Assembly (NCBI RefSeq): GCF_022539665.2
Contig: NC_081331.1
Location: forward strand, 10,137,534 to 10,201,533
Direction: 5' to 3'
Length of the DNA stretch: 64,000 nt
Source: Daphnia carinata
Lineage: Eukaryota; Arthropoda; Branchiopoda; Diplostraca; Daphniidae
Positions 316-62,441 of this stretch are shown one piece after another. The position numbers and the translations under genes were made by a program. A model generated the notes under the pieces. The model saw only the letters and a program-made list of their open reading frames with translations, was not told where the DNA came from and made no database searches. Numbering within the stretch: the stretch's first letter is position 1; the number at the start of each line of letters is the position of its first letter.

Positions 316-1509
316 TCACCGTTCGCCAGTGCACATTTCATAAATAAGGAAGACCAGACAAATATTGGGCGTGACGTGGACCATGTAGGGCGACAGGCCT
401 TTATAAAATCCGCGGACACCTTCGTACCTCCACGTCTGCGATATCACATCCATGACGCCCTTGTAGTCGCGGTATTGATCCTGCAATCGGGCTCGAACTA
501 CTTGATAGGGGTAAGTAGCAGTGGCGGCAAACAATTTTGACAGGGCGGCAAATGACAGGTACTCAGACGTGGCCTAGATTCAGATTATGAAATTGATTTT
601 ATACGAAAACCTACATAACGGGGATAGACTAAATGGTTTTTGACTCACCAATTTGGTGTCGATAGGTAAATTTCGGTAACTATTGTAACTATTTTTCATT
701 TCCTCATAAGCCATAAACTGAAGTGCACCGTGTGAGACGCCAAAGATTCCTGGCACGAATCCTTTGTACAAACCACGAATGCCTTCATAGCGGTACATCT
801 TGACTAGAGCATCAATCATTCCCCTGAAAAGACTATCATTAGTATTCCAACATGCAAGTTACTGTAGGAAATAAATCTTACTTGTATCTCTTTTCATCTG
901 AGAGATGAACTGTTTCTGGACCATATTGCAGACAAAGACGAGTTTTCACGACCCATATAGGATTTGTCAAGATTTGGGTAGCTACACCTGCTTCAGCGGC
1001 CGCTAACATATGTTTGGCGGGACTCAGCGCTACGGTTGAATCTCCACTTTGCATTTCTACTTTGATGGCATTGTAACTGTTCAAATACGACGAATAGACA
1101 ACAAGGAATCCTCGGTAATGAACAGTAAGACACCTACAAAAAGAAATAGGACCCCCACGCAAATCCTGCACCACAAACATTGGGCGCTACACCTCTGTAC
1201 AGACCACGAATTCCTTCAGTTCGAGTTATGCTGCAAACGGCGTCATACAATCCAGAATACTGAGGTCGTATACTCAACTGACCGTCACTGACTGAAATGA
1301 TGAAATGCGTTATAATATTGTCATCCCTGAATTCGTATAGACATACCTGCAAATCTGATTTTGATCAAGTCCAAAGGATGAAGAATCAATGTGGATGCAA
1401 CTCCACCTGATATTCCTGCTATAAGATGTTCATACCTCATGTTTGATAAAAATATGGCCACTCGTGTGCTGGCATTGGGCATGCCAAGGCTAGGGTTTGT
1501 CTTTGCCAT
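316..1509 (-). CDS. SLC25A32: Mitochondrial folate/FAD carrier, SLC25A32 family
   Basis: Inner-membrane solute carrier of the mitochondrial carrier family; SLC25A32 proteins carry folate or FAD into mitochondria. Five coding exons fit: 1509-1347, 1291-1138, 1076-882, 823-649 and 573-316, all with GT-AG introns of 46-75 bases. They total 945 bases, or 314 residues, the usual family length. The three signature repeats are visible: PLDLIK in exon 1, PIWVVKTR in exon 3 (the PIW form is typical of this subfamily and its FAD/pyrimidine relatives), and PYQVVRAR in exon 5. Each is followed by the second-helix motif ([27 protein letters not shown]). I chose the ATG at 1509 for its context (AAAATGG); another in-frame ATG lies 15 bases upstream. 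The 3' UTR would lie in bases 1-315. Family assignment is firm; the substrate is inferred from the family. Confidence 0.92.
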
Positions 1510-3695: not shown

Positions 3696-6600
3696 TTAAA
3701 GTGACAAAATTTCACTTGTACTGGCTTGACCCAGCGGTGGCCAGTCCTTTTCCGTGGCTAAGTCCAGCTCTACCTTCTTGTACTTGTTCTTTGGTTCAGA
3801 GTTGCGAGGATCATTTGCTGGACGCTGAATGGACTCGTTTTCAGCGACCAAATTTTCAATATAAAGAGCCACAGAAAGGTGCAATATAACTAGAAGTATC
3901 AGACAGCTGCGGAACAGGTACATGTTGTCGTCGTCATCAGTCCTTGTGGAACCAACAGGAATCCCACCGTCATCCTCTGAGTACCAGTGAAAAGGATTCA
4001 CGTTGATCCCCATCACTTGGAAAAAGTCGGCCAGCGGCCCGATCGGCAGCAATGTCAGGACTAGAGAGAATGCCGTTAGGACAATCAGGGCGAAGAGAAA
4101 AAGTTTGTTGGTATAAAATGGCTGTCGATAAGGAGGTCCGTAGGAAAATGCAAGCGCAAGAATAAGGTATTGAAATGAACTTATCGAGAAGATGACGGTT
4201 ACTTCCCAACACGGAATAATGACTTCATCGCCGTCGGGATGTATAGGGTGATACCAGGGCTGCAGCATTAAGAGCAACAGGGCACCGAGTTGTATGGCCG
4301 CCGTCAAAGCTATTTGCATAACTAAAGACAGCATATTTGAGCTGGTAAGAAGCGACCCTCTAGGGCGGTGAACCACGAGGTTTGGGTAGGGATCAGTGTG
4401 TCCCATTAGAACGGCAACCGTTGTCGTGATGAACAGGTCATGATAGAGAAACATATAGTCGCCAAGAGTTGTGCGTAGCGAGTATAGGATCAGTACGGAT
4501 ATGAACTGAATCAAGCTGTAGAGTGCCATATACTTAAACACCCCGAAACTGGTGACTAAGGCACAACGACCTTCACGGACGATAGTCGGGACACATGAAA
4601 TGTTTCCAGCTTTAGCAGTGAAGGGAGCAGCCACGGATGCCTCAGCATCCGACAAAGAAATGCCTACATGAGCTGCTTTAAGAGCTCCGCAGTCATTAGC
4701 TCCATCCCCGCAAAATCCAACAGCGTAACCAAGTTCTTGAAACTCTTCCACCACCTTATGTGGCATGTAAAAGGAATTAGTAAACGTACATGCATTATGG
4801 AAAACCATGACAAGAATTACTTTTGTTTTCTGATCAGGTGTCATCCGAGCTAGAATGGTTGCTCGCACAAGGATTCTTTGCAGTAAATGAGGAAAATGTT
4901 TACGAATGACGTCTAGGGTTTTCCCCCCAAGAGCCAAATGTAATCGTGGAGTTAGATGGTTACTGTCCAATCCTCTTTCAGCATCGGAAACAAGAGCTTG
5001 TCTGCGCCACATACGCGATATGTTTTCCATTGGCTGGAATACCGAGTCTGGCCAGCTCTCAGTAAACATGGCATCTGACTCTGACGACGACAAGACACCA
5101 CTCTCTTCTAAATCCCTTTCATACATTTCAGCCAATGAATAGGTAATGGATGCACGGGTAGTACCCTTCGGTGAAGTAGCTGTAACAAGTATCACTTTTT
5201 CTCCTACAGGAAGCATGTCACAATCTCTTCCCACATTAATTGCAGTTAGCAGGTTGTCACCTAGATGAAAAAGTTAGAGAATTACTGAAAATTACCAGAA
5301 GCGCAAGATTTGTATTTGAATGAAACCTACCAGTAACCATAACACATCGAATGCTAGCGTTACGCAATTGTCGAACAACTGGGGTCGTTTCGGATTTGAG
5401 AGTATTATGCATAACGAGTAGACCAAGGAAGTTCAGATTGCATTCCATTTGTTCTCGCTTCATGCGGTGCATTTGGTGCCAGGTCAATCGTCGATCTAAT
5501 ACGCGATGAGCTAATGCAAGTACACGGAAACCACGCATTGTGAATGATCTTAGAACTTTGGCAAAATTTGCTGGCACGGATGCCTCCACGCAAAGTGTTC
5601 GAATCATTTCAGGCGACCCTTTACATAGCAGCTCCATGTGAGCGCTACCTAAAGTTCGGACAACTACCGACATTCTTTGTAGGCTGGAGCTGAATGGAAA
5701 CTGGCGTACGATACCCACTGCATATGGTATCTTCAAGACAATATGGATTATTAACCTTAAACGATTACTCAATATTTTCAAATTGTACTTCGAATCCCGT
5801 TTCAGCGAAATCAAAACCATGAACACCCAGGAACGTATCGCGAGTGACGGGTTTGACAACAATAGGAGCCATAACATCGTAACGAGTTATATCTGCTCCC
5901 GGTTCTTCCAAAATCCATTGAGTTGATTTGAACATTTCCAGTTCTAAAGGGTCACCGATCAATTGACCTAAGAGAATGTTTTTGTTTGTTTGTTTTTTTT
6001 TCCAGCGATTTTCATGGACAATATCTAAAGCAAGCAAAGTGGAAAGGTAAAAACCTTCGATTCGGGTAAGAGTATGGCACGCCGCGAGAGTTACTAAAAC
6101 TGGATCATCTTGTTTCAGTTGAAGTGCTGGATCACGAACAAGATCAGCAAAAACATTTTCATCTTTTGATCGCGGTGCCACTCCGCAAAATTCGAGACCA
6201 CCTTCTGTCAGGGTTCCTGTCTGGAAACAAGTAAAAATTGACATTAATTAACCATTGATATGAAATAATTTTTTTTTAGATTTTTGCTTTTTCAGCCTTC
6301 CTACTTTATCGAAGCACATGAGCTTTAATTTGCCACACACATTGATGCGTGGTGGCGAAATGCAAAAGATGCCGTTACGGCGCAAACGTGACTGAGCGTA
6401 CACTGTTCCAACCGTCATTGCGGCGGGCATGGCGGGCGGAACGACGATTGTTAGCATATCACAAGCACGTATGACAATTTCCCAAAGCGTAGCCTAGAAT
6501 AAATATTATATAATCAGGAGGTAAACATTGTACATGTAAAAAAAACAAATATATTCCTTACCCCTTTCGTGATATAAACGTAGACGCAATAGGTAATGCC

Positions 6601-11026: not shown

Positions 11027-12027
11027 TCAACCCGACAAAGACTGGACTGTGTTTCTACATGCGAGATAACCTTGGTAGAAAGGCGTCTGGGCAACTGGTG
11101 CGTTGCAGCCGAATCCGCCCAAAATGTGGAGGTGCGCGTAGTCATCACAGTTAATTACTCCATCTCCGTTGCAATCCTAGAGACATAAATTACGAGACAG
11201 TAAATAATTATATCAATGATGCTAAAGTAATATCAAAAATTAATAAAATACCTGTGCAAATTTTGCCATGTATCCACGTACAGTTTCTCCAGCACACACA
11301 GCATCTTGGACACACGCCTCGAAAGCTATTTTTACAATTCGTTAAAATATTCTTAGACGTTTCCCCAATTGAGGTGGGAATAAATATTGGACGTACCTCC
11401 TTTCCGTTCAGGGTCGTCGTTCGCTAGAACGAATTTGCCTGCGTCTGCCCAATAAGCCCAAGAAATAAGGAAAGGGCCACAAAGGTATTGGTGACCAGAT
11501 GTGCAAGGAATCGTCATGTTACAACCTGTACTGGCCTGGCACAAACATCCCAGGCAATCCTCTGGGACTACAGATGCTACCTGACCTGAAAACATAATTA
11601 TTAGGGTAGACAAAAAATTGTAAGAGAATCATTCGGATTCACTTTTATTCATGGTAGTTGAAATACTTTAAGTTGTGTTTCAAACCTTATTGACCAAATT
11701 TATTGGGCATTTTTAGCTTATTTGATATTTAGGTTTTTGCCAACGCAATTTTAATGGAAATTGTACGAAGCTTACGTCAGAATACAAAGATTGGTATTTG
11801 CCCTGCAGGTTATCACAGGATACTATTGACCTAGGCATTTTACAGTCGCAAAAGCTTAGACATTTTTCTACCTCATTATTTTAAAGCAAAATATGGTTTC
11901 GAGAAACTTTTAAATTTGCGTACTAACACTCTGTAACTAAAAATAGAAAGGCAATATTACCTTGGGTGAACGGGGAAAATGTAGCCAAAAAAGCAAAAAG
12001 GCAAACAGCAGCGATCTTGAGCAGCAT
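11027..12027 (-). CDS. Secreted i-type lysozyme / destabilase-like protein (copy 2)
   Basis: Four exons: 12027-11961, 11585-11397, 11325-11252, 11176-11027, 480 bases, 159 residues. Intron positions and phases match copy 1 exactly, and exon 3 has the same length (74 bases) in both. The signal peptide is MLLKIAAVCLFAFLATFSPFTQG. The mature protein shows CLGCLCQASTGC, YLCGPFLISWAYWADAG, AFEACVQDAVC and DCNGDGVINCDDY. As in copy 1, Ser replaces the catalytic Glu position and the downstream Asp is absent. The family is clear from the cysteine spacing. A digestive or immune role is possible but only inferred. The acidic DCNGDGVINCDDY loop resembles a cation-binding loop but could be coincidental. 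Confidence 0.88.
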
Positions 12028-19708: not shown

Positions 19709-20494
19709 TTAATGCGCAGGCTGCGCATTGTATGGAACGCAACTCTGATCGGTAATACCTACAGGGTTCCTCCTGTCAGTTAACTGCTCCGGATAGGGAT
19801 AGACATAAAGATGGGAAGGATATGGATACGTAGCCGTGGGAGTTAGCGGAAGTAGCAAACTATTTCTCAATTCGTGAAACGAATGAACAGGGGGACCTGC
19901 TGAATTCGCCGAATGAAAAGGAGGACCCGAATTAGACGAATGAAAAGCTACGTGTTCATGTGGAATTTGCTCTTGCAATTCCCTCTGAAAATCATTCAGA
20001 GGCACTGCAACCTTTTCCATCAGGACTTCTCTCGCCTTTTTGACATCGTGAGTAAGAGTTTGTAATTCGACAACAGACAAGTCGGGCTTTGACAAAGCGT
20101 CTTTTAGTAATAACAGGTATCTCTTCAAAAGCGAACACTCAACGAGAATATTCTCCCCCAAAAGAATAGAATAGGGTTTACAATCGGCCAGATTGGGACT
20201 GAACGAGGTCGGAGGGCCATTCAAACTCAACATCGCAGGCGTCAAAGAATTGCTTTCCCGTTTGGCCGCCGACTGGCGTGACGGCCGAGCCACGACATGT
20301 GAAACTGACGGCCCAGGATTGCCCAATGATTGTGCCATTATTGTACTCGAAGACGCTCCATCCGCGATCGGAGTCTTTTTGGAGGCAACCAGCTTTTCGT
20401 ACACTTCCCTTTTCTTGTAACTGCTCTCGCGATGCAGTTGAAAAGCGGAAACAGGGTGCCCATCATCCACAGTCAATTCTTCGCTCTCCGACAT
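19709..20494 (-). CDS. Doublesex paralogue lacking the DM domain, oligomerisation domain kept
   Basis: Intact single-exon frame of 261 residues. The N-terminus MSESEELTVDDGHPVSA is clearly related to that of DSX1 (MSDSDAEELSVGAPSPISA). The two zinc modules that should follow are absent. What follows is KKREVYEKLVASKK near 27-40, which resembles the tail/recognition-helix region of DSX1 (KKRKINAEQVALRRAQ), and then a Ser-rich GASSSTI stretch also seen in DSX1. Residues about 109-178 match the C-terminal oligomerisation domain of DSX1 and DSX2 (ILLGENILVECSLLKRYLLLL ... LNDFQRELQEQI). The tail has an HSxNSxGPP repeat (185-204) and aromatic YPYP motifs. No zinc-binding cysteine pattern exists, so it cannot bind DNA like DSX. 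It may pair with DSX1/DSX2 and modulate them (inference). An acceptor (TTTACGCAG) at 20515 puts a 5' UTR intron upstream. A decaying pseudogene is the alternative, but the open frame argues against it. Confidence 0.85.
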   Translation of the reverse strand: MSESEELTVDDGHPVSAFQLHRESSYKKREVYEKLVASKKTPIADGASSSTIMAQSLGNPGPSVSHVVARPSRQSAAKRESNSLTPAMLSLNGPPTSFSPNLADCKPYSILLGENILVECSLLKRYLLLLKDALSKPDLSVVELQTLTHDVKKAREVLMEKVAVPLNDFQRELQEQIPHEHVAFHSSNSGPPFHSANSAGPPVHSFHELRNSLLLPLTPTATYPYPSHLYVYPYPEQLTDRRNPVGITDQSCVPYNAQPAH

Positions 20495-20514: not shown

Positions 20515-22809
20515 CTGCGTAAACAAACAATAGTAAGTCAAAAATAAATTTCGAAATTGCTTGAAGAAGAAAAACTATTTTCGACCTATTAAGAAATAGA
20601 AAAGCGTAATCGCTGCAGCGAAAGGCAACAATAGAAAGCTGATTGAAATTCTGTACGAGTGTCACATGCGATTCTTAGAGCGAGCGCAGAGTTAATCTAC
20701 TAGTTCCAAGAGCCAAACGTTCGAAAAAGTATTTCAAAAGTAACTTGAAAGTGGTCGCAGCGAGAGCAACTTTTTCGACTTACTTTGTCACACACCAGGG
20801 GGAAACTAGTCAGTTACGACTTTGAACCTTGCCGAGAACCCTCTGTTACCATGTTGCAAGCCGTCGTGCACACGACCGAGCGCTGAAGGCAACAGAACGC
20901 TGCGCTAACAGCGAATATCTTACTCGCTCGACTTTACGCTTGGCTACGAGTATCCTGAACGAACAGCAAAAAATAAAACTCCTTTTTTCTCGTGTCGTTA
21001 TTTTGAATACGAAACGAGATGGATTCCAATATGAGCTAAAATTGCACGTCTTCAAGTGAAACAAGAAAAGTACTGAAAATCGAAGGGTAACATGGTAGAA
21101 ATGAAAAAGTAGCCACGTTTCACGCACTGACAGATATTGCATTTTTGGAAGACCCGCGTTGCAAAAAATATAAAGCGCAAAACAAAACGCTGAGAATCTT
21201 GCCATCTCTGGTTGGAGTCCTGCATATTCAGATTCCATTTCAAGTCTATAAAAAGAAAATGCAATCTCCTTAAGGAAAAAAAAAGCCGTCTTCTATATCA
21301 TTACGAGTCCCACAGTTTGATTACAAAGCATCAAAGTCAAATCTACGCTGACAAAGCTATCGTCTGAACTGGCCCGCCTTTAGTGAACTCGTTGACGTTG
21401 TGTAGCCGTGGGCCCAATCGAGCCACGCACAAAGTAGTTGGGCCGCAGTCACGCAGTCATGTGAGATTAACGCAAGTCAACGATTGCCTTAATCGAGTGT
21501 TTTTAATCTTATACGTAGCCGCCGGCGACAAAATCAACTTCAACCACATTACATCCATGTCATTTTAAAGATGGGCCGTTCTCTATTTCTCAGCGCATTT
21601 GGACACTGACGCGAGTTGGGTTCGGCCTCTTAAAAGAAAACGAACCACGGCATCTTTAACTCCCGTAATTAAAACAATTACTTGTTGTTTTAATTTTTTT
21701 TTCTCTCTGTTCTGTCTTACGTACCCATCAAGGTCGCTTGCATAGTTTCTTTCACCGTACAACATTCACTGGCGGTAAAGATGAGTTGGAGCGAGAAAAA
21801 GAAAACGCGCGTGCCGAAGAGGTTTCTACCGTGACAATCGTTATGGGAAAAAAAAAAAAAAAAAAAAGAAATTGTAGTTTAAGTTGGACGAAAGATTGTT
21901 TACCAGAGGGAGGGGAAAGTAACATACAATATATCCTACGTTATTGCACTGACAGAGTAACTTGAAGCAAAGCTCAAGCAAAGAGTCACGAGCTCGACTC
22001 GTTGCGAAGAGCACGAAACTCTGTTGCCAAGGTCCGCGGGCTCGCAAGAAGCACCACACACACACACAAATCGAAAAGATTTGCTTCAAAATTCTTTTCT
22101 TCGTCAGGATTTTCCTATTCAAAGATGGCGATACTCTGAATGTTTTGACAATCGAAAGATCAGTCACACCCCACAATCGATGATGTTGCCAGCGTATAAA
22201 CAGACGAAGTCAACGAGTAAATATTGTGATTCTATCGACGATTTTTTAAATGTCGTTCAGCGGATGCCAACTGGACCGAAAAGAAACTAAAAAAATCGCC
22301 AATGAATAATTTATGGATTGAAAAATAATAGATGGTATCATCGCGGCAAGAGCCGCATTTCAATCGAGCATAATTTTCACAATAGCTCTCGACTTCCAAT
22401 TAGGAGTCCACGAGACGGATCGAGGTTGGCGAGAATTCGTTGTCTAAAACGACAGCATTGCGATGAAAAGAGTTCTGACTTTCAAAGAGAAAGGAAGAAA
22501 CGCGTCACTCACTAGTTCCCACTCCATCGCCATCTCAATCACAGGGTCGACAAGACGGAACAACGGTTGAAGTAGACGAGACCCAGAAACTCCAACCTCA
22601 CTCCCCCCACTCCCTCCTCAAATAAAAAGAAAGAAAAGAAAACACTCTCCACCAAGCCTCGAACTCTCCTACGCTCGAAAAGAATGATCAGATTGAATTC
22701 GGTAAAGAATCTTACATTTCGAACGGAAAAAAAAAGCCAATACATAAATTCTGCTACAGAAGCCGTTGGTAGGTGGAAGCCCATTACACATTGACTGACA
22801 GGGACTTAC
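20515..22809. other. Probable 5' UTR intron and upstream region of the DM-less dsx gene
   Basis: No coding gene seen. The minus-strand acceptor at 20515-20516 and the donor after 22810 make most of this stretch a plausible intron. A long A-run lies at 21847-21866 and a plus-strand AAAGATGGCGAT at about 22122. Confidence 0.4.
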
Positions 22810-25570: not shown

Positions 25571-26364
25571 ACAAGGTCGACTGCCCGTAAATTTCTGCTG
25601 AGCTAGAATCGGCTGATGGTTGCCAAGTTTCTATTATCGAGCGAGTTGCTACTTTTTGGGGGTAATTTTCAATTAAATAAATTGCAGGTAATTTTATTCG
25701 CACAAAATAATGTACCATTCCTGTTTTTCTCCAACGCTGTGACGACGTATATATTTGATTTGTTTTTAAAGATTTTGACTTTGCCGAGGGGGGGACACAT
25801 TTGCGATGAAAGAACTTAATAAATCCGCCAGAAGTTGGGTAAAATAACTTTGTGACGCTCAAATTAAATTGTTAAAAATGTAACCTAACGTTAAAACCAT
25901 TTGACGGTACCCAAGGCCCGCTCCCCTTCCAGTCGTTTGGGTGGAACTAATCGTCCACAGTTTTCCCAATAATTAATGGTACTTTAAATAGGCGTGACAT
26001 TGTCCAATTGTCTGTTTGAATGGCCAATAACCAACCTTAACGACGGTGTATGGAACTATTCAGTTATCAGTTTGAGCAATAATTCGCCACGCTTTAAAAA
26101 TAACAAAATACGTCAACATATTTCTTGTTGGGGGTTTAGTGTATTCAGTCAATATATTCGATTTTTTTTTTCAATCGACATCCAGATTACAGAAAGGGCC
26201 GCATAAAGATATTACACACTCATCACAGATAACTGCAAAAATTAAAACCAGGAAGAAAACGAAAACGCCAAGCCAATGGAATTAATTAGAAAGGGGAAAA
26301 TTACAGGAAAACAAGGTTTTTCTTGTTTGATTAAACTTTCGTTTATAAATACCTTACGGCCCAA
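25571..26364. other. Region downstream of dsx2
   Basis: Probably the dsx2 3' UTR plus intergenic DNA. I did not find the 28-base element present downstream of the other two doublesex-type genes. A minus-strand AATAAA lies at about 25692. No gene seen. Confidence 0.4.
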
Positions 26365-27312
26365 TCATTGATTAACATAGGGATACATAGGAAGAGAAAG
26401 ATGACGTGGTGGGCAAATGACGGTGTTTCGGCTGGCGTGACCGTATAGTTGAGCTGCGCTAAACGCATCTTCCGACGTCGCTCGATTGGACTGTTCCGAA
26501 AGGATTGCAAACTGGTTGGCAATGTATGGTGGAACAGCCAAAGTGGATTTCGCACTGGCATTAGAAATCTGTTCCCGCTGCAATCTATCGATAAGATATT
26601 GATAGATATCGTTCAATTGAGTAGAGACCTCGTCTCGAATGATACAAATCGCCGTACAAACGTCATTATCAAGATAAGCCAAGTGCTCGACGGTAAGTTT
26701 CGAATCACGCAAAGAATTTACTAGTAGAGAAGCTCTCCTGCCTAGCAGGAAGCATTCTAGTGCCATGTTTTTCCCGAATTCTTGAGGCCCACTGCCGGGA
26801 GCGTAATGAGATGGCATGTATTGAGTCGTATTAGGCTCTGATAACGGACGATCCACGTCTAAAGCTGATCTAGTCGAGTTTCTTCCCAAGTCGGATGGCG
26901 AAATAGACGAAGCGAAAGTCCTTGGCGTTGTCGAACCGGAAGAAGTATTAGGCTGCATTGTGGGCCTATCGATTCCCAGTTCCCTGTCTTGTTGCTGAGC
27001 TCGCCTGGACGCTACCTGAGATGCGTTGATTTTCTGCTTCTTGCGAGTGACTCGACACAGGTCGCAACTGCAACGCCCAAACGGACAGTAACGCTTATGA
27101 CCTTTTAAAGGACTATTGATGCCGTGATTTTTGCACAGGGCACAAGTTGGATTGCGACAGGATGCTCCTTTTCCTGTGCCGAACGACGTTGGACTACTTT
27201 TTAACTCGTCATCTTCGTCCATGTGTTCAACATCAATCGTCTCTGAATGATCAAACTGGTTTAGCGAGGACGGAGATAACATTTCGAAGGATTCTTCATT
27301 GTTGAAGGGCAT
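26365..27312 (-). CDS. dsx2: Doublesex 2, DM-domain transcription factor
   Basis: Nuclear zinc-module DNA-binding protein, 315 residues from one coding exon. The DM domain spans about 55-110, with the full ligand set: C57, C60, H63, H72, C76, C81, C83, C86 (CALCKNHGINSPLKGHKRYC and CSCDLC), and the tail helix INASQVASRRAQQQDRE. The DSX-type oligomerisation domain lies near 179-249. The N-terminus is acidic and the tail ends in PMYPYVNQ. Compared with DSX1 the first zinc module has GINSP in place of QTIST and the tail helix has Ser and Gln changes (VASRRAQQQD). An acceptor TTTTGTTTTCAG at 27342 places a 5' UTR exon upstream. In Daphnia magna the dsx2 gene lies in tandem with dsx1 and, unlike dsx1, has not been shown to drive male traits (published knowledge). 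Assignment to dsx2 rests on order and sequence. Confidence 0.9.
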   Translation of the reverse strand: MPFNNEESFEMLSPSSLNQFDHSETIDVEHMDEDDELKSSPTSFGTGKGASCRNPTCALCKNHGINSPLKGHKRYCPFGRCSCDLCRVTRKKQKINASQVASRRAQQQDRELGIDRPTMQPNTSSGSTTPRTFASSISPSDLGRNSTRSALDVDRPLSEPNTTQYMPSHYAPGSGPQEFGKNMALECFLLGRRASLLVNSLRDSKLTVEHLAYLDNDVCTAICIIRDEVSTQLNDIYQYLIDRLQREQISNASAKSTLAVPPYIANQFAILSEQSNRATSEDAFSAAQLYGHASRNTVICPPRHLSLPMYPYVNQ

Positions 27313-27713
27313 CTATTTCGGCCAAGGAGATCAGCGTAGAGCTGAAAACAAAATCAAAACTTTAAAATTCAACTAGGACGTTGGGTGCAGAAACGGTGAC
27401 CGAATTCTGCACAACAGCGGAATGTTAAAACTGGAAATCAACAAACTGCGCAAAAAAAACAGATATTTTTTTTCGAGAAAGTTTATGATGGCTAAAATGG
27501 CAAAAAAGACTTTTAATTCTGAGTTACATTCCATCAATACGACAGGAAAAAAAAGTGCTTAAATGCATAGTTTCTACTTTAGATAAAAACTGAAAAACAG
27601 AACGTATCTAACCAGATTAAGCCACTAACCAATAAAAGTCAGACACTGGAGTGCAATCTTGGATATAAAAAACTTGAAAAATAAGACGTAGAATCTAAAA
27701 GCCATAGACTTAC

Positions 27714-38117: not shown

Positions 38118-39110
38118 TCAATTGGGATATAAAGTTTGGTGTAGGGAAGGATGGGGGCCGTTAATGACGGTCGCTCGAAACTGAGTCTGAAAAGATGAGG
38201 GGATTTGGTAATTATGAATGGATACTGGAGGCGCTGGATTTCCTTTTTGAAGTTGATCTTGACCATACACCAGATTTGGATTGGGTACAAAATTTACATT
38301 TCCGGAATGAATCTTGATTTGAATTTCATGATGAATTTCGTTGAGTTGACAAGAGACCCTATCAATCTCCGCTTTGACGTCTTGAATTATCCGGAAGAGG
38401 AAACCCAACATTTCGAAGCCTAACCGTTTCTCGCAAACAGAGTGCCTCAGTAAGGAGACATTCTGGCCCATGAGAATGCTGCCAAGTGATAATTGTTGCC
38501 CAAAGACTACGGGACTCGATTGGTGGCATCCCGCGGCCGGTGTAGGCCGCGCTGGTGCATCGATTTTCACTTTTGGCGCCCTTTCCTCTCTGCCCGGCAT
38601 CGAGTGTTGATGCTCGGAGCGAGACGGCCTCGCTTTCCCACAATCGGGCGAAGGCGATTGTTGGATAGAAGAGGGTGTAGTGATTGTTGACGCTGAGGAG
38701 CTTGAAATCCTTTCGAGTTGCTGAATAATTCCTTTTTTGCGCAGTTCTTCGTCTTGGGCTTGAGCTCGTCTCAGCGCCACTTGCTCCGCATTGATCTTTC
38801 TCTTTTTATTGGTGCCGTAGCACAACTCGCACATACATTGTCGCCAGGGACAGTATCTCTTGTGGCCTTTGAGTGTGCTTATCGTTTGGTGATTCTTGCA
38901 GAGGGCACAGGTTGGATGCCGCTGTGACGCACCATTGCTGTCATTCATCGCGTCCACTCCTTCGTTACGGATACGAAAACTTGAAACGCTGCTGGATCCT
39001 TCTTCATCGCCATCCATGATAATCATGTTAGAAACGTGGTGATGGCGCTCTTTAGCTGAAATCGGCGACGGTGCCCCAACGGACAATTCTTCTGCGTCGC
39101 TATCTGACAT
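38118..39110 (-). CDS. dsx1: Doublesex 1, DM-domain male-determining transcription factor
   Basis: Nuclear DM-domain transcription factor, 330 residues in one coding exon. DM domain at about 66-120 with all ligands visible: C68, C71, H74, H83, C87, C92, C94, C97 (CALCKNHQTISTLKGHKRYC, CMCELC), and the recognition helix INAEQVALRRAQAQDEE matching the metazoan consensus. The oligomerisation domain lies near 202-268 (ILMGQNVSLLRHSV ... CQLNEIHHEIQIKI). In Daphnia magna this gene is switched on in males and is sufficient for male traits; control is transcriptional and through the 5' UTR, not by sex-specific splicing of coding exons. The uninterrupted coding exon here agrees with that. An acceptor (AAACATTAG) at 39131 joins it to upstream 5' UTR exons that I cannot place with certainty. 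Confidence 0.93.
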   Translation of the reverse strand: MSDSDAEELSVGAPSPISAKERHHHVSNMIIMDGDEEGSSSVSSFRIRNEGVDAMNDSNGASQRHPTCALCKNHQTISTLKGHKRYCPWRQCMCELCYGTNKKRKINAEQVALRRAQAQDEELRKKGIIQQLERISSSSASTITTPSSIQQSPSPDCGKARPSRSEHQHSMPGREERAPKVKIDAPARPTPAAGCHQSSPVVFGQQLSLGSILMGQNVSLLRHSVCEKRLGFEMLGFLFRIIQDVKAEIDRVSCQLNEIHHEIQIKIHSGNVNFVPNPNLVYGQDQLQKGNPAPPVSIHNYQIPSSFQTQFRATVINGPHPSLHQTLYPN

Positions 39111-39853
39111 TGATGTCTAATGAAAAGCACCTAATGTTTCAAGAGATAAAAAACAAAATTTGGGTTTAGATTTTCTTTTTTGCTTCATGCCGAAAACAAG
39201 TTGAAAAAAAAAACGGGTTTGCTTAATGACGGGCATAAAAAAAAATAAAAATGGGCCGATGTCTTAGATAAGCCGAGATTAGGCAATCGATGGTAACTGA
39301 TCGTGATGTAAGCACCACTTTGGTTGCGTAGGCATGGACTCTTCAACGCACGTCATCGAAATTCTTTAACAAACTAGTTTTTCTTTTCGTTTTTCACAAC
39401 AAGAATATTTGAAACACACATAATTCTTTTTTTAAAAATCATACATTTAAAACGTATTAAAATTACCTATATATTGAATAAAAAAAAAGAACGTCAACAC
39501 ACACACACACGACGAAAACGAGAGGAAACTGTGCGACAAAAACACGAAGAGCCAAAAAATTCGAGATTCGAGAACGAGCCAACTTACTCGGTAAGGCACC
39601 AAAAGGGAACTAAGCAGTGGTTCTACGATATTTTTTCGGTACGAAGCTTTTCCTTCGCGCGGGGATCATGCACTGTTGGTGGTATGGCAATGGCAAGGAC
39701 ACCAAACACAGCAGTCGGATCGTTTTACCCCTTCGACTTGCGAGCCCGGAAAACAAGCTGCTTTTATTTTGGCTTTGACAGAAGTATACCCATACCGATT
39801 TGCGCCCCCCCCCCCGCCTCGTTCATCTGAACCGGAAGGGTAGTAGTAAGTTG

Positions 39854-56970: not shown

Positions 56971-58319
56971 ATGTCGGAAATTGAAGAATTATCGCAGTTT
57001 CTCGCTTTGGATATGCGACTAGATGTAAAGGCCCTAGCACTACAACAGACCCTAGGTAACTACTGAGTTTTTCATAAACTGTTTCAGTTACTTAATCTGT
57101 TTCCATACAGGATTGACAGGTACCACCGATGGAAGGCACCTTTTGATTAACACACCATGCATTGTTAAGAACCTCTGCCAACTTTTAAATGATAGCCAAA
57201 ACTCAGTTGCAAAAGATGCAAGCTTGGCGCTCATCAACCTTTCAGCTGACGAAGAAGTCATACCAGCTTTGCTTGCTGAAGCGACAAATATTGTCGAACA
57301 TATGTTGAAGATCATAAGCAATCCTGAACACAACCTTGCTGATCCTGCTTGTATGGTGTTGTCAAATCTTACACGGTCGAAACTTGGAAGTGAAAAAGTG
57401 TTTCAAAGTATGGATGGAAATTTAGACAAATATGTTGACATATTCTGCCAAGAAAAATACAACAAGAAAGGTGCACGGCTCCACTATCTTGCATCTGTAT
57501 TGTCCAATTTGAGCCAACTTCCTGCTGTGAGAAGGTATTTGCATTACTCACCGTATGCCAATTGTTAACTGCACTATTTTTTCTTTCTCTTAGTTATATT
57601 CTGGACCCATCTCGGTCATGCCTGCAGAGGCTAGTTTCTTTTACAGATTACAAGGATTCCATCAGTAGAAGAGGTGCTATTCTTGGACTGATAAAAAATT
57701 GCTGTTTTGAAACAGGTAAACTGTTGCCAGAATGCTAATATGATTCAATCCTGCAAAATTATTTCATTGCTGTGCAGACCACCACGAATTTTTACTGAGT
57801 GAAGCTGTCGACTTGCTCCCCAAGTTACTTATTCCTCTAGCCGGTCCCGAGGAGTTCGACGAAGAAGATAACGATAAGCTACCCATCGATTTGCAATATT
57901 TGGGTGAAGAGAAAACTAGAGAGCCTGATCCTGACATACGTAAAATGCTTTTGGAGGCATTGACCCAGGTATTCCTACTTATACTAGATTACTGTGACGC
58001 CGTAAGCTACCTCTCAATTCCTATAAAAGTTATGCGCCACTAAATTTGGACGTGAATACTTGCGCTCAAAAAATACTTACGTCATCCTCCGTGAGCTCCA
58101 CAAGTGGGAAAAGAACGAAAATGTTTTGGTAATTCTTGAACATTTGGTCAACATACTGATTAGGTAATATATAGCCTGTAATTATTTTTAACGTCACAGT
58201 TAATAATTGAATCCAAATAATGTAGGTTCGAGCACGAAATCGGCCACGACAATCTCAAAGAAGTAGAAATTCCGGATGAAATAACTGAAAAATTTAATGC
58301 TTTAGAGCCTGCTTTGTGA
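56971..58319 (+). CDS. HGH1: HGH1 homologue, eEF2-folding co-chaperone
   Basis: Cytosolic armadillo-repeat protein; yeast and human HGH1 deliver translation elongation factor eEF2 to the TRiC chaperonin. Six exons: 56971-57055, 57111-57534, 57594-57715, 57778-57968, 58030-58163, 58226-58319, totalling 1050 bases, 349 residues. Recognisable family segments include DASLALINLSAD, NLADPACMVLSNLTR, KGARLHYLASVLSNLSQL, RRGAILGLIKNCCFET, LLPKLLIPLAGPEEFDEEDNDKLP, and DIRKMLLEALTQL. The start ATG is the first in frame and gives MSEIEELSQFL. A plus-strand ATTAAA at about 58476 is a possible poly(A) signal. Complete and apparently functional. Confidence 0.94.
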
Positions 58320-58669: not shown

Positions 58670-61600
58670 TTATGGAAGGTATCCCAAGGAATTTTCTAAT
58701 TCACTTCGCTTCGAGAAACCATTCTTATTGTTCCGGTTTGCGCCTCGAAAATGCATCGAGCTGTAAGCATCATCAGTGGAAAGCTCAGACGCCGTGTCTT
58801 CGGTTGCCTCACTGTCATCAATGACAATATCCGTGGTTTGGTTGAGCTTGATGTTGGAAAACATGGCCGCTATTTCGGTCGTCTTCTTAGCCGAAAGCGC
58901 ACCTTCTGGCACCGCCTTCGTGATGGAACGATGGTGGTGTTGACTGTGATGAGTCGATCCAGCTGATGAGGTTCCTCGGTAAACAACCTTGCCCTTGGGG
59001 TCCACTGCCGACACCATCAGAAACTGGAATAATAGGCTATTATTACAAGGAATCCAATCAAGGATAAAAAGAAACCAAAATAAGGAAAACAAAATCAATA
59101 AAAACAAATTCGTACTTTATTGCCACGAAACGAGTTTTGTGACTTTAGTGATCTATCGCTAGAGGAATTCGAATTCCTCCGGCCCTCGCTAACGGAACTC
59201 AGATTTTCCAAGCTGAAATTCCTCGATGTCCGTCCGCTGCTGCCCGTCGAATCATAACTTTGGTATCCGACCGATTCCGCTGGGCTGGTTTTACGCTGCT
59301 GTCGTTGCTGTTGGCTGGAAATCGAAACTGGACCGCGGACGAAACTGTTGCAACTCGTCGAATCCATTTCCGTCTCGCTTGATAAATACGAACTACGGCT
59401 TTTCCTGCGTAAAATCTCTGGCTGTTTAGCGAACGAACTTTTGCCGTTAGCCGACTTGTGGGCCGGCTCAGTCATGGCTACCACATCCGAATCTAATGAC
59501 GTGTCACTTAAATAAGAGCTTAAACTCTTTTGCCTCAAAGAAGATGCGCTGGACAACGTAAAGCGGGTAGATGGCGCGGAAGGCTTAGTTGTCGTTGCTG
59601 GAGCGGAATGTTGCAAATTAGCCGTATTTCTTCGCCAGGCAGTTAATGGAGACTCGGCTCCGGATAAAGCAGACCAGGACGTCATACTAGCCGATTTTCT
59701 TGCATAATTCGGACGATTCTTTGTAGGCTTAATGTGAGGTGGATGTCTGACGGCCGGTTCGGGCAAACTGTCGTGGCTTGTGTCTGTGTCATCAGAGTCG
59801 AGACGGATGCGATAAACTGGAGCCCCGCTCGACTTGCTGATTCTCTTTAACGAGCAGTAACATCGTTCAGCGTCGCTGTAATCAGTGGTGTCTTGCGACT
59901 GTGTTTCGTTGAATGAACAATAGCATTTATGTGAACACGATTCACTGTCATAGCCGCATTCAGAACAGGATGCACTGTAATCAGGCGCTTTGTTGACGAT
60001 GCTGTTCTTGTTGTTGGCGACAACAGACCTCGGTGGCAACGGCGTCTTGGGATTGAAATGCTTGGTTGGGAAAACCAATGGAGCCACGGAAACAATGGAG
60101 GGCTCCGGGCTCTTAATAATTTTAATGTTCTTAATTAGCTGAGGCTCGGATGCTTGTTTCTCTTCCTTGGTAACAGAGTAACCGGTGGATGCGGAGCGGG
60201 CAGCGCCCCATTTCGAGAAAGACTTTTTGGTGGCTCTCAAGACGCTACTGATGCGTGAAGAACTGGTACTGTGCTCAGCGTCCGAATCCCGTCCGGCCGA
60301 TTTATTGGTCCCGTTTCTGGTGATATCTGCTTTGGCTTTCGACTTGGTTTTGCTCAGATTACTCGTCTGGTGCCTCATTATGTTCTTGGAGCGCTGGAAC
60401 ATCTCGTCCTTGCTCAGTGTCAAGGCTAGTTTCATCAGCATCTCTTTGTAGGCCGGCGTCAAATCATTGAAAGACATTCGGTCTTTATTGACTATTGTTT
60501 TCAGGACATCGTCTACACTCCGAACACCTTCATGTTTCTGCGCAAAGTAAGAAATGCGAATATTAAAAAAAAAAACCGAACTTTAAATAGAATCATTAAA
60601 AATTGTACCTTTAATTCTTCAAAAAGTTCGGAAAAGGAGTAATTTTGTTGTGGAACGGTCATGAAACTCTTGCTTCGCGGAATGGCTACTTTGGTGAGTA
60701 TGTCTCCATTGTTACCGTGATCCGGCCCGTCCAACCCATCTGACGTTAATACCTCGCCCAAATGTCGCTCAGACACGCTACGTTTAACAACAACACGGCC
60801 GGTGTTACTCCGTTGGCTAGCGTTACGCATACTGCGACGTAAATTTGCTTTGCCTTGCGAAGATCTCGTTTTATTTTGACTTCGTCGGATACTCTTCCGT
60901 CTTTCAAGGCCTCCATCAAGAGGCTTTGAGGATTTCTTGCGTCGCGGCGGGCGAACGGGCTGCGTGAAACTTGAAGTGACTGAACTCTCGCTCCAATTAG
61001 AGACACTGGTCGAGGGCGAGTAGATGGGTTGAGCAATTTTGTTAACGGGAGTAGCAGATGTCGGCGGAGGTGGTGGTGCCTGTTGTTGCGGTGGTTGTTG
61101 CTGCTGTTGCGATGATTCATTGTTTTTCATATTGCGCAGCAGGGCCTGGTAGAGATTAGCTGCAATAACAATGGCGTCTTCGGGATTGTCGCAAACGAAT
61201 GCGTGACATTCCAAGTTCTTTGGAGCCTGCGTGTTGCGCATGACGCAGGTAAACAATGGCGGGTGGAAGGTGGGTGAAGTCACCCATTCTCCGTCATCAG
61301 CCGGGCTCAGCGGGTGGAAAAGATTCTGTTTGTCCTGATTCTCCGGATCGCAAATGAGCGGCAAAAAGGCAAACTTTCGCCCGCCGGGCTCGGAACGTGC
61401 CACAAACTTGACGGCCGCCCAAACGGCAATAGTGGGAAATGGGTTTAAGATCTCCTTAGGAACAGAGGGTCTACGATTGTCTGACAAATAGTATTGGATT
61501 TTCAAACCGGCTGGAGAAATTTCCATTGTACCGCGGTAGATTTTATTCCTGTTCGCATTTTCATGCTGCCGATATTGGCTATAAAGCTCTTTCAATGGAA

Positions 61601-62441
61601 ACTGGAGCGACTCCAGGCTTGTAGCTCGGCCTGGAAGGGATAACGAGCCAAGATAATCAACTTTGTACTGATTGGTATTGGTCATTGATGATGAGGAAGG
61701 CGGCGACGGTGGTGGCACGGCCGGAATCGGTGGAAGAGGAACATTTTGCTTGTTATGCACTGCTTTTTGAGTAGGTAACGGGTAGTCGGAACGGACATTG
61801 ATCACCGCTTTATGATTCGTTATGTTGATAACGGACGAGCTCGGATCATTCACGGTCGATGGTGACGACGTTGAGACGTGATGGTTCATCGCCGTTTTGT
61901 TCGATTGCTGGCCGTTGCTATTTGTTGATGCATCTTGGAACATCTTCTCAATTTGCGCTTGAACGGCTGTGCGGGCCTCGTTGAAACGCTGGGCTCGACT
62001 CTCAGGTGTTGAATCACGCATCAACGTGTGATTTACCTGATTGTTGACTTGAATGTACGTCGTCGAATTATTTTTGGAGGCCGGAGTGGCTGGAACAGGT
62101 GATGTGACGCTTCCGCGTTGTTCGGCCAAAACCTTTTGGAAATGCAGTTGCAAATGTTCCATGGTTGGTTCATCCACTGCCGCGTCATCTTCTTCCTCGA
62201 TGAGCGTCTTGTGGTTCTCGCTCGTGTGGCGGCGGAGATGTTGTTGCCGGAACAAGCTGTCGATTCTTTCCTTGTAGACGGAGCTGTCCAGAGTCGACGC
62301 ACCACTGTGATCAGATATGAGAGTTCCGGTTGGGCTACCGCCGTTCACATCACCGTTGTTGCCGTTGCTGTTCACCAATCGGAATGTGTAGCCCCGTTCA
62401 CCGGCTTCCGGGCGGTATCTCACCATTCCTTCTTCTTGTAC
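58670..62441 (-). CDS. Large PTB-domain adaptor protein (5' end unresolved)
   Basis: Three exons fit: 62441-60609, 60537-59116, 59023-58670. From the ATG at 62426 they give 1197 residues in frame. A phosphotyrosine-binding fold spans about 252-430: YKVDYLGSLSLPG (strand 1), the TMEISPAGLKIQYY segment, FPTIAVWAAVKFV, then CHAFVCDNPEDAIVIAANLYQALL (the C-terminal helix). It is flanked by long disordered, Ser/Pro/Gln-rich stretches, including a QQ/PP block after the domain and a basic RPPRRKKSSK segment. The exon 2 start (SVDDVLKTIVNKDRMSFNDLTPAYKEMLMKLALTLSKDEMFQRSKNIM) is a predicted-helical conserved-looking module that I do not recognise. The acceptor at 62442 is in frame with five more codons (VQEEG), so an upstream coding exon may exist. 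PTB proteins act as adaptors at membrane receptors; the specific role is unknown. Confidence 0.82.

Follow-up and report, generated by a model that had tools for sequence, protein, structure and literature searches.

Within the stretch of Daphnia carinata DNA analysed here (64 kb out of a 108-Mb genome, hereafter the window), an intact frame of 261 codons plus stop on the minus strand (19709-20494) is almost certainly a doublesex (dsx) gene devoid of the DM domain. Judged from sequence comparisons, this frame, which we call the OD-only gene, appears to be a third dsx paralogue of water fleas, most similar to DSX2, and its product seems by homology to keep the dimer domain (the oligomerisation domain, OD) without the DNA-binding domain. 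The OD-only protein probably tunes the proteins of male development rather than switching genes itself. Taken as a whole, our best explanation, namely a third dsx paralogue whose product would serve as a regulatory subunit in males, is given a probability of approximately 0.5. The original prediction of a dsx paralogue that has lost its zinc modules and retained its OD is supported both by the absence of the DM domain and by the homology of the OD.

The OD-only gene within the dsx cluster

The three genes of the cluster lie on one strand, the order along the minus strand being DSX1, DSX2 and then the OD-only gene. DSX1, the male determiner (38118-39110, minus strand, 330 aa, DM and OD), was recognised by its Pfam DM match and is 97% identical to D. 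carinata Doublesex 1. DSX2 (26365-27312, minus strand, 315 aa, DM and OD), recognised by Pfam DM, is by BLASTP the paralogue most similar to the OD-only protein, the gene of which is located downstream after a gap of 5.9 kb. In each of the three genes, the coding part is a single frame with a probable 3' splice acceptor, located by eye, 20-30 nt upstream of the ATG, the AG positions having been checked (minus strand: 20515-20516, 20 nt upstream of the OD-only ATG; 27342-27343 for DSX2; 39131-39132 for DSX1). Since a likely acceptor precedes each ATG, upstream noncoding exons may exist in all three. Frame and coordinates thus confirm that an intact 261-codon frame stands in the dsx cluster on the common strand, whereas the intronless layout originally ascribed to it holds for the coding part and perhaps not upstream. 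This layout, common to the three genes, fits a tandem duplication of DNA, which the position of the OD-only gene in the dsx cluster makes its likely origin.

Pfam detected the DM domain in DSX1 (E 5e-18) and in DSX2 (E 3e-19), and the OD-only protein gave no match to it (PF00751) at E values up to 10. Approximately 75 codons of the DSX1 layout, including both zinc modules, are missing in frame from the OD-only gene, and the clean loss of the zinc modules that had been claimed is accordingly borne out. Genome-wide, PF00751 retrieved five loci, i.e. DSX1 and DSX2 in the window and three others; as these three fall outside the window, the search found no detached DM exon near the OD-only gene.

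Residues 108-183 of the OD-only protein are homologous to the DSX OD, a span that includes the residues (109-178) first aligned with the ODs of DSX1 and DSX2. Indeed, BLASTP aligned the protein with DSX2 at 32% identity over 85 residues (E 3e-10) and with DSX1 at an E value of 0.014 only, while profile-profile comparison of the OD-only protein and its 15 relatives with 18 DSX2 proteins reached 1.1e-14 (76 columns), and with 22 DSX1-type proteins 1.8e-13 (113 columns). For the domain as a whole (residues 108-186; 19937-20173, minus strand), AlphaFold2 predicts two helices (108-134 and 141-186) in a layout similar to that of DSX1 (200-226 and 232-268), with block-mean pLDDT of 75-88 across most of the OD. 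The remainder of the model is mostly of low confidence (mean pLDDT of the entire model: 56.5); Foldseek and VIA-align comparisons of this mostly low-confidence model with the PDB gave no match, nor did a PDB sequence search with the protein. The Pfam family DSX_dimer (PF08828) misses DSX1, DSX2 and the OD-only protein alike. Its silence is uninformative, because even DSX1 and DSX2 are missed, and Pfam annotation would therefore not name the OD-only protein.

Upstream of the OD, residues 25-40 (SYKKREVYEKLVASKK; 20375-20422, minus strand) are likely a remnant of the tail (recognition) helix of the DM domain, as had been proposed. A block of these 16 residues, built from nine representatives, was slid without gaps along 22 DSX1-type and 18 DSX2 proteins, and its best placement was the DM tail (TNKKRKINAEQVALRR and similar) in 22/22 and 18/18 of them, respectively, these 40/40 placements not being independent results because the tested proteins are mutually related. 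Column-permuted blocks equalled the real score in 1/5000 (four DSX1 proteins) and 2/5000 cases (three DSX2 proteins). Weaker support came from HMMs, for which 10,000 shuffled proteins served as the control: a model of the entire N-terminus placed 2/40 real proteins (8.7 and 8.0 bits, both at the tail) above the best shuffle (7.0), and with the tail alone no real protein exceeded the best shuffle (4.2 versus 7.2 bits). For the tail, the gapless block test is thus clearer than the HMM, and AlphaFold2 predicts a helix at residues 17-39 (pLDDT about 59-67). As for the very beginning of the protein, the alignment with DSX1 initially described is suggestive only: the block formed by the first nine residues ranks 1-3 in 15/20 DSX1 (rank 1 in four) and in 5/18 DSX2, two of the 22 DSX1 proteins, with no recognisable start, being left out.

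The window also holds genes outside the cluster. A Destabilase (i-type lysozyme) exon (11356-11613, minus strand, Pfam E 8e-15) separates the OD-only gene from exons coding for a cation-transporting P-type ATPase (3696-5877, minus strand; Cation_ATPase 6e-07, Cation_ATPase_C below the cut-off), and small minus-strand frames with signal-peptide-like stretches, as seen by eye, occur around 9.7-12.1 kb. A mitochondrial carrier exon (878-1180, minus strand; PF00153, 5e-07) and a DUF383 exon (57113-57568, plus strand; E 4e-18) were recognised as well, together with a 637-codon frame (60513-62426, minus strand) showing a weak PTB/PID match below the cut-off, after which comes a 460-codon frame without Pfam match.

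Conservation and place in the dsx family

Eleven relatives of the OD-only protein were found by protein search, and 15 in total after a profile search, all from a protein database in which broken gene copies would escape detection. Their identity ranges from 97% down to 39%, the whole query being covered in each. Among them are GHT06_009487 of D. sinensis (hypothetical, 97% identical) and LOC124314999 of D. pulicaria (uncharacterized), and the gene is already present in public annotation as uncharacterised. Constraint is unevenly distributed along the protein: on 12 representatives out of the 16 rows, mean pairwise identity (gapped fraction) amounts to 0.75 (0.00) in the tail, 0.69 (0.01) in the OD and 0.66 (0.06) in a C-terminal segment (residues 221-261, PYPSHLYxYP...AQPAH; 19712-19834, minus strand) for which no Pfam family matched, as compared with 0.44 (0.34) and 0.48 (0.30) in the two linkers and 0.53 (0.14) in the first 24 residues. 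Such a contrast between the three constrained parts and the gap-rich linkers speaks for purifying selection.

The pace of change was compared on the OD between the window and three protein sets, the matching of which across genes is provisional. Identities were 70/75, 48/76 and 42/76 for the OD-only gene, 73/76, 58/76 and 52/76 for DSX2, and 72/75, 69/75 and 68/75 for DSX1, the most telling set being the second (48/76 versus 58/76 and 69/75). On these provisionally matched sets, the OD of the OD-only gene appears to change at a higher rate than its counterparts in DSX1 and DSX2.

For comparisons within the family, the DSX set was drawn from the best 120 of 1720 matched proteins, 43 of which were grouped by eye as DSX1- or DSX2-type; with P0002 and P0003 from the window, it comprises 27 DSX1-type and 18 DSX2 rows. 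Five divergent DSX1-type proteins (P0042, P0052, P0053, P0056 and P0058) were left out of the tail tests and trees and kept in the interface-column counts. P0062, P0063 and P0069, the C-terminal half of which is not OD-like by appearance, were excluded, as was P0030, a DSX2 with a deviating C-terminus, from the DSX2 set. The latter is a predicted D. carinata isoform (NCBI ‘isoform X2’) that is identical to the DSX2 of the window over its first 218 residues and then leaves the DSX2 frame, inside the OD (26346-26561, minus strand), its new C-terminus being mostly another frame of the same exon. It is a possible DSX2 splice form without the full OD, i.e. the converse of the OD-only gene.

In an unrooted tree of 80 OD columns, the 16 OD-only (100/100), 18 DSX2 (98/94) and 22 DSX1-type (99/94) proteins each occupy one side of a branch, three groups among which an unrooted tree cannot tell the two sisters. 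The possibility that the OD-only gene is simply the DSX2 orthologue was rejected, the two sets of rows standing apart at these values. When the tree was rooted on four insect ODs (the OD pattern having missed 4/8 insect proteins for this tree, and 2/5 in a second set), the OD-only group joined DSX2 at 97/90, but the root fell inside the daphniid-like DSX1, an implausible placement that makes it unreliable. Three alternatives were tried: grouping the OD-only proteins with daphniid-like DSX1 gave a p-AU of 0.046, whereas grouping them with all DSX1-type proteins, or DSX1-type with DSX2, gave 0.16 each. In mean OD identity, the OD-only proteins stand closer to DSX2 (0.32) than to DSX1-type proteins (0.22-0.24). 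Tail helix (weaker as an HMM), cluster position and exon layout all support a common descent with the dsx genes.

Interface residues, probable male expression and possible partners

The DSX2 of D. magna is described as carrying Asp at two of three nonpolar interface residues, and as possibly unable to dimerise (Toyota et al. 2013, PMC3637828). From the description given in that paper, two interface columns were inferred. At the first, DSX1-type proteins have Phe in 18/27 cases and Glu or Asp in six, all 18 DSX2 have Asp, Glu or Asn, and the 16 OD-only proteins have Thr (13), Ala (2) or Ile (1). At the second, Ile or Val is found in 20/27 DSX1-type proteins, Asp or Glu in 18/18 DSX2, and Asp in 14/16 OD-only proteins (Glu in the other 2/16). 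At these two inferred columns, the OD-only protein thus seems to resemble DSX2 and not daphniid DSX1, which lowers the odds of its pairing with DSX1.

Six DSX1-type proteins (P0040, P0041, P0043, P0057, P0059 and P0064) have Glu or Asp at the position where daphniid-like DSX1 has Phe. An acidic first column may therefore be an old state and need not mean that pairing was lost, and the published idea linking the acidic residue to a loss of DSX2 dimerisation deserves a second look.

The OD-only gene has probably been published already, as a locus with male bias. Nong et al. (2020, PMC7458346) chose an ‘uncharacterized protein’ of D. magna, Dapma7bEVm007306, as downstream of Dsx1 and Dsx2, and a supplementary legend of that paper gives its expression as male specific. 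The sex bias of all eight chosen genes was confirmed by qPCR in 40-h embryos, Dsx1 and Dsx2 being male-biased too, and the number 007396 is also given in the legend to a gene of that region (PMC7458346). By position alone, Dapma7bEVm007306 is probably the orthologue of the OD-only gene, because no other recognisable gene intervenes between DSX2 and the OD-only frame; against this positional match, an i-type lysozyme gene and P-type ATPase exons are also located downstream of the OD-only gene. If the two are orthologues, then the OD-only gene is on in males, like Dsx1 and Dsx2. Such a likely male bias argues against a female-promoting antagonist, and not against a brake or partner acting inside males.

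In water fleas, one genome gives rise to both sexes, with DSX1 as the switch. The course of events that we propose would start with a tandem duplication in the dsx cluster giving rise to a third paralogue, from which the zinc modules would then have been lost, selection continuing to act on the tail helix, the OD and the protein's own C-terminus. Unable to bind DNA by itself, the resulting protein would act as a regulatory subunit present in males together with DSX1 and DSX2. The partner of its OD would be DSX2 or a second copy of the same protein, DSX1 being less likely, and pairing would alter which DSX complexes sit on DNA, these being damped or redirected. We regard this mechanism, a male subunit pairing through its OD and changing the DSX complexes on DNA, as tentative. 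Given the likely male expression and the DSX2-like OD, the role that reads best is nonetheless that of partnering or damping DSX2 (or the protein itself). The further suggestion that the male-expressed protein serves environmental sex determination by tuning the dose of DSX complexes, as a missing partner for DSX2, is speculative.

The main rival, rather doubtful in our opinion, is that the protein acts outside the DSX system, its tail helix and C-terminal segment binding partners of another kind for a novel function specific to males, for example in the gonad. Indeed, the longest invariant run shared by the window protein and its first 11 relatives (12 rows) lies in the tail (SYKKREVYEKL, 11 residues), constraint on the C-terminus almost equals that on the OD (0.66 versus 0.69), and with DSX2 possibly non-dimerising and the OD-only protein mostly polar at the inferred interface positions, the OD could serve another use. 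However, once all 15 relatives are aligned (16 rows), the longest invariant run is found in the OD (ECSLLK, six residues) and the tail keeps only KKRE; moreover, gaps are almost absent from the OD, and the gene still resides in the dsx cluster.

It was also originally proposed that the protein could behave as an Id-like antagonist, binding DSX1 through the OD, keeping it off DNA and thereby holding down the male programme. The homology of its OD to that of DSX1, the absence of DNA-binding modules and the similar predicted helix layout are what such a titration would call for, yet the two inferred interface columns mostly hold Thr and Asp instead of the Phe and Ile/Val of daphniid DSX1, identity of the OD to that of daphniid-like DSX1 averages only about 22%, and expression is likely to be male-biased (PMC7458346). 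Titration of DSX1 thus appears less likely than first proposed, and we consider it improbable. Finally, a decaying pseudogene or a chance frame is very unlikely, despite the faster change relative to DSX1 and DSX2 and a protein search that would not reveal broken copies, as the frame is intact, 15 full-length relatives carry blocks of invariant residues under uneven constraint, and only 0.0004 open stretches of such length are expected by chance in the window (crude base-composition model); the original reading of an intact gene is supported.

Comparison with known systems

The dsx surveys consulted here rest on the DM domain: the tree of dsx relatives presented in PMC9290531, for instance, is built on DM domains and would therefore miss the OD-only gene by design, as had been anticipated for DM-keyed searches. 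More generally, DMRT surveys keyed on this domain can miss family members that have lost it. In the literature among the matches listed, mostly open-access, neither a DM-less dsx gene with an OD as a separate conserved gene nor an account of the present gene as a dsx paralogue was found, in keeping with the suggestion that it may be undescribed.

Id proteins have kept a dimer domain and lost DNA binding, and their dominant-negative pairing is established. Their fold is unrelated to that of the OD-only protein, for which pairing with a blocking effect is hypothetical. Xenopus DM-W, a W-linked gene, belongs to a system of genetic sex determination; it keeps its DM domain and competes for DNA, whereas the OD-only gene has its DNA-binding half gone. 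DM-W, which is called a dominant-negative inhibitor of masculinisation (PMC12562212), is comparable as a DMRT paralogue that modulates its parent, as the OD-only gene may do. Another tandem truncated dsx paralogue is dsxB of Zerene cesonia, the expression of which is sex-limited; it is the mirror image of the OD-only gene, keeping DM and OD1 without OD2 (PMC8557438). With DM-W and Zerene dsxB, examples are known of DMRT paralogues that are sex-linked or sex-limited and retain the DM domain.

Closer at hand, Daphnia DSX2 (PMC3637828) is a neighbour on the same strand with a similar exon layout and the most similar OD. Like the OD-only protein, it is polar at the inferred interface columns, where it is mostly acidic; it differs in its C-terminus and in possessing a full DM domain, of which the OD-only protein retains no more than the tail helix. 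The D. magna locus Dapma7bEVm007306 is likewise uncharacterised, downstream of Dsx2 and male-biased, and the text of PMC7458346 consulted here mentions neither an OD nor dsx descent for it. The OD of DSX2 shares the changed interface, and the OD-only gene may explain the role of DSX2, so far unexplained. A putatively pairing-capable dsx protein without DM domain, kept in 15 relatives, would offer a testable way to set the DSX dose, and if it does tune this dose, it would be the reverse of both DM-W and Zerene dsxB.
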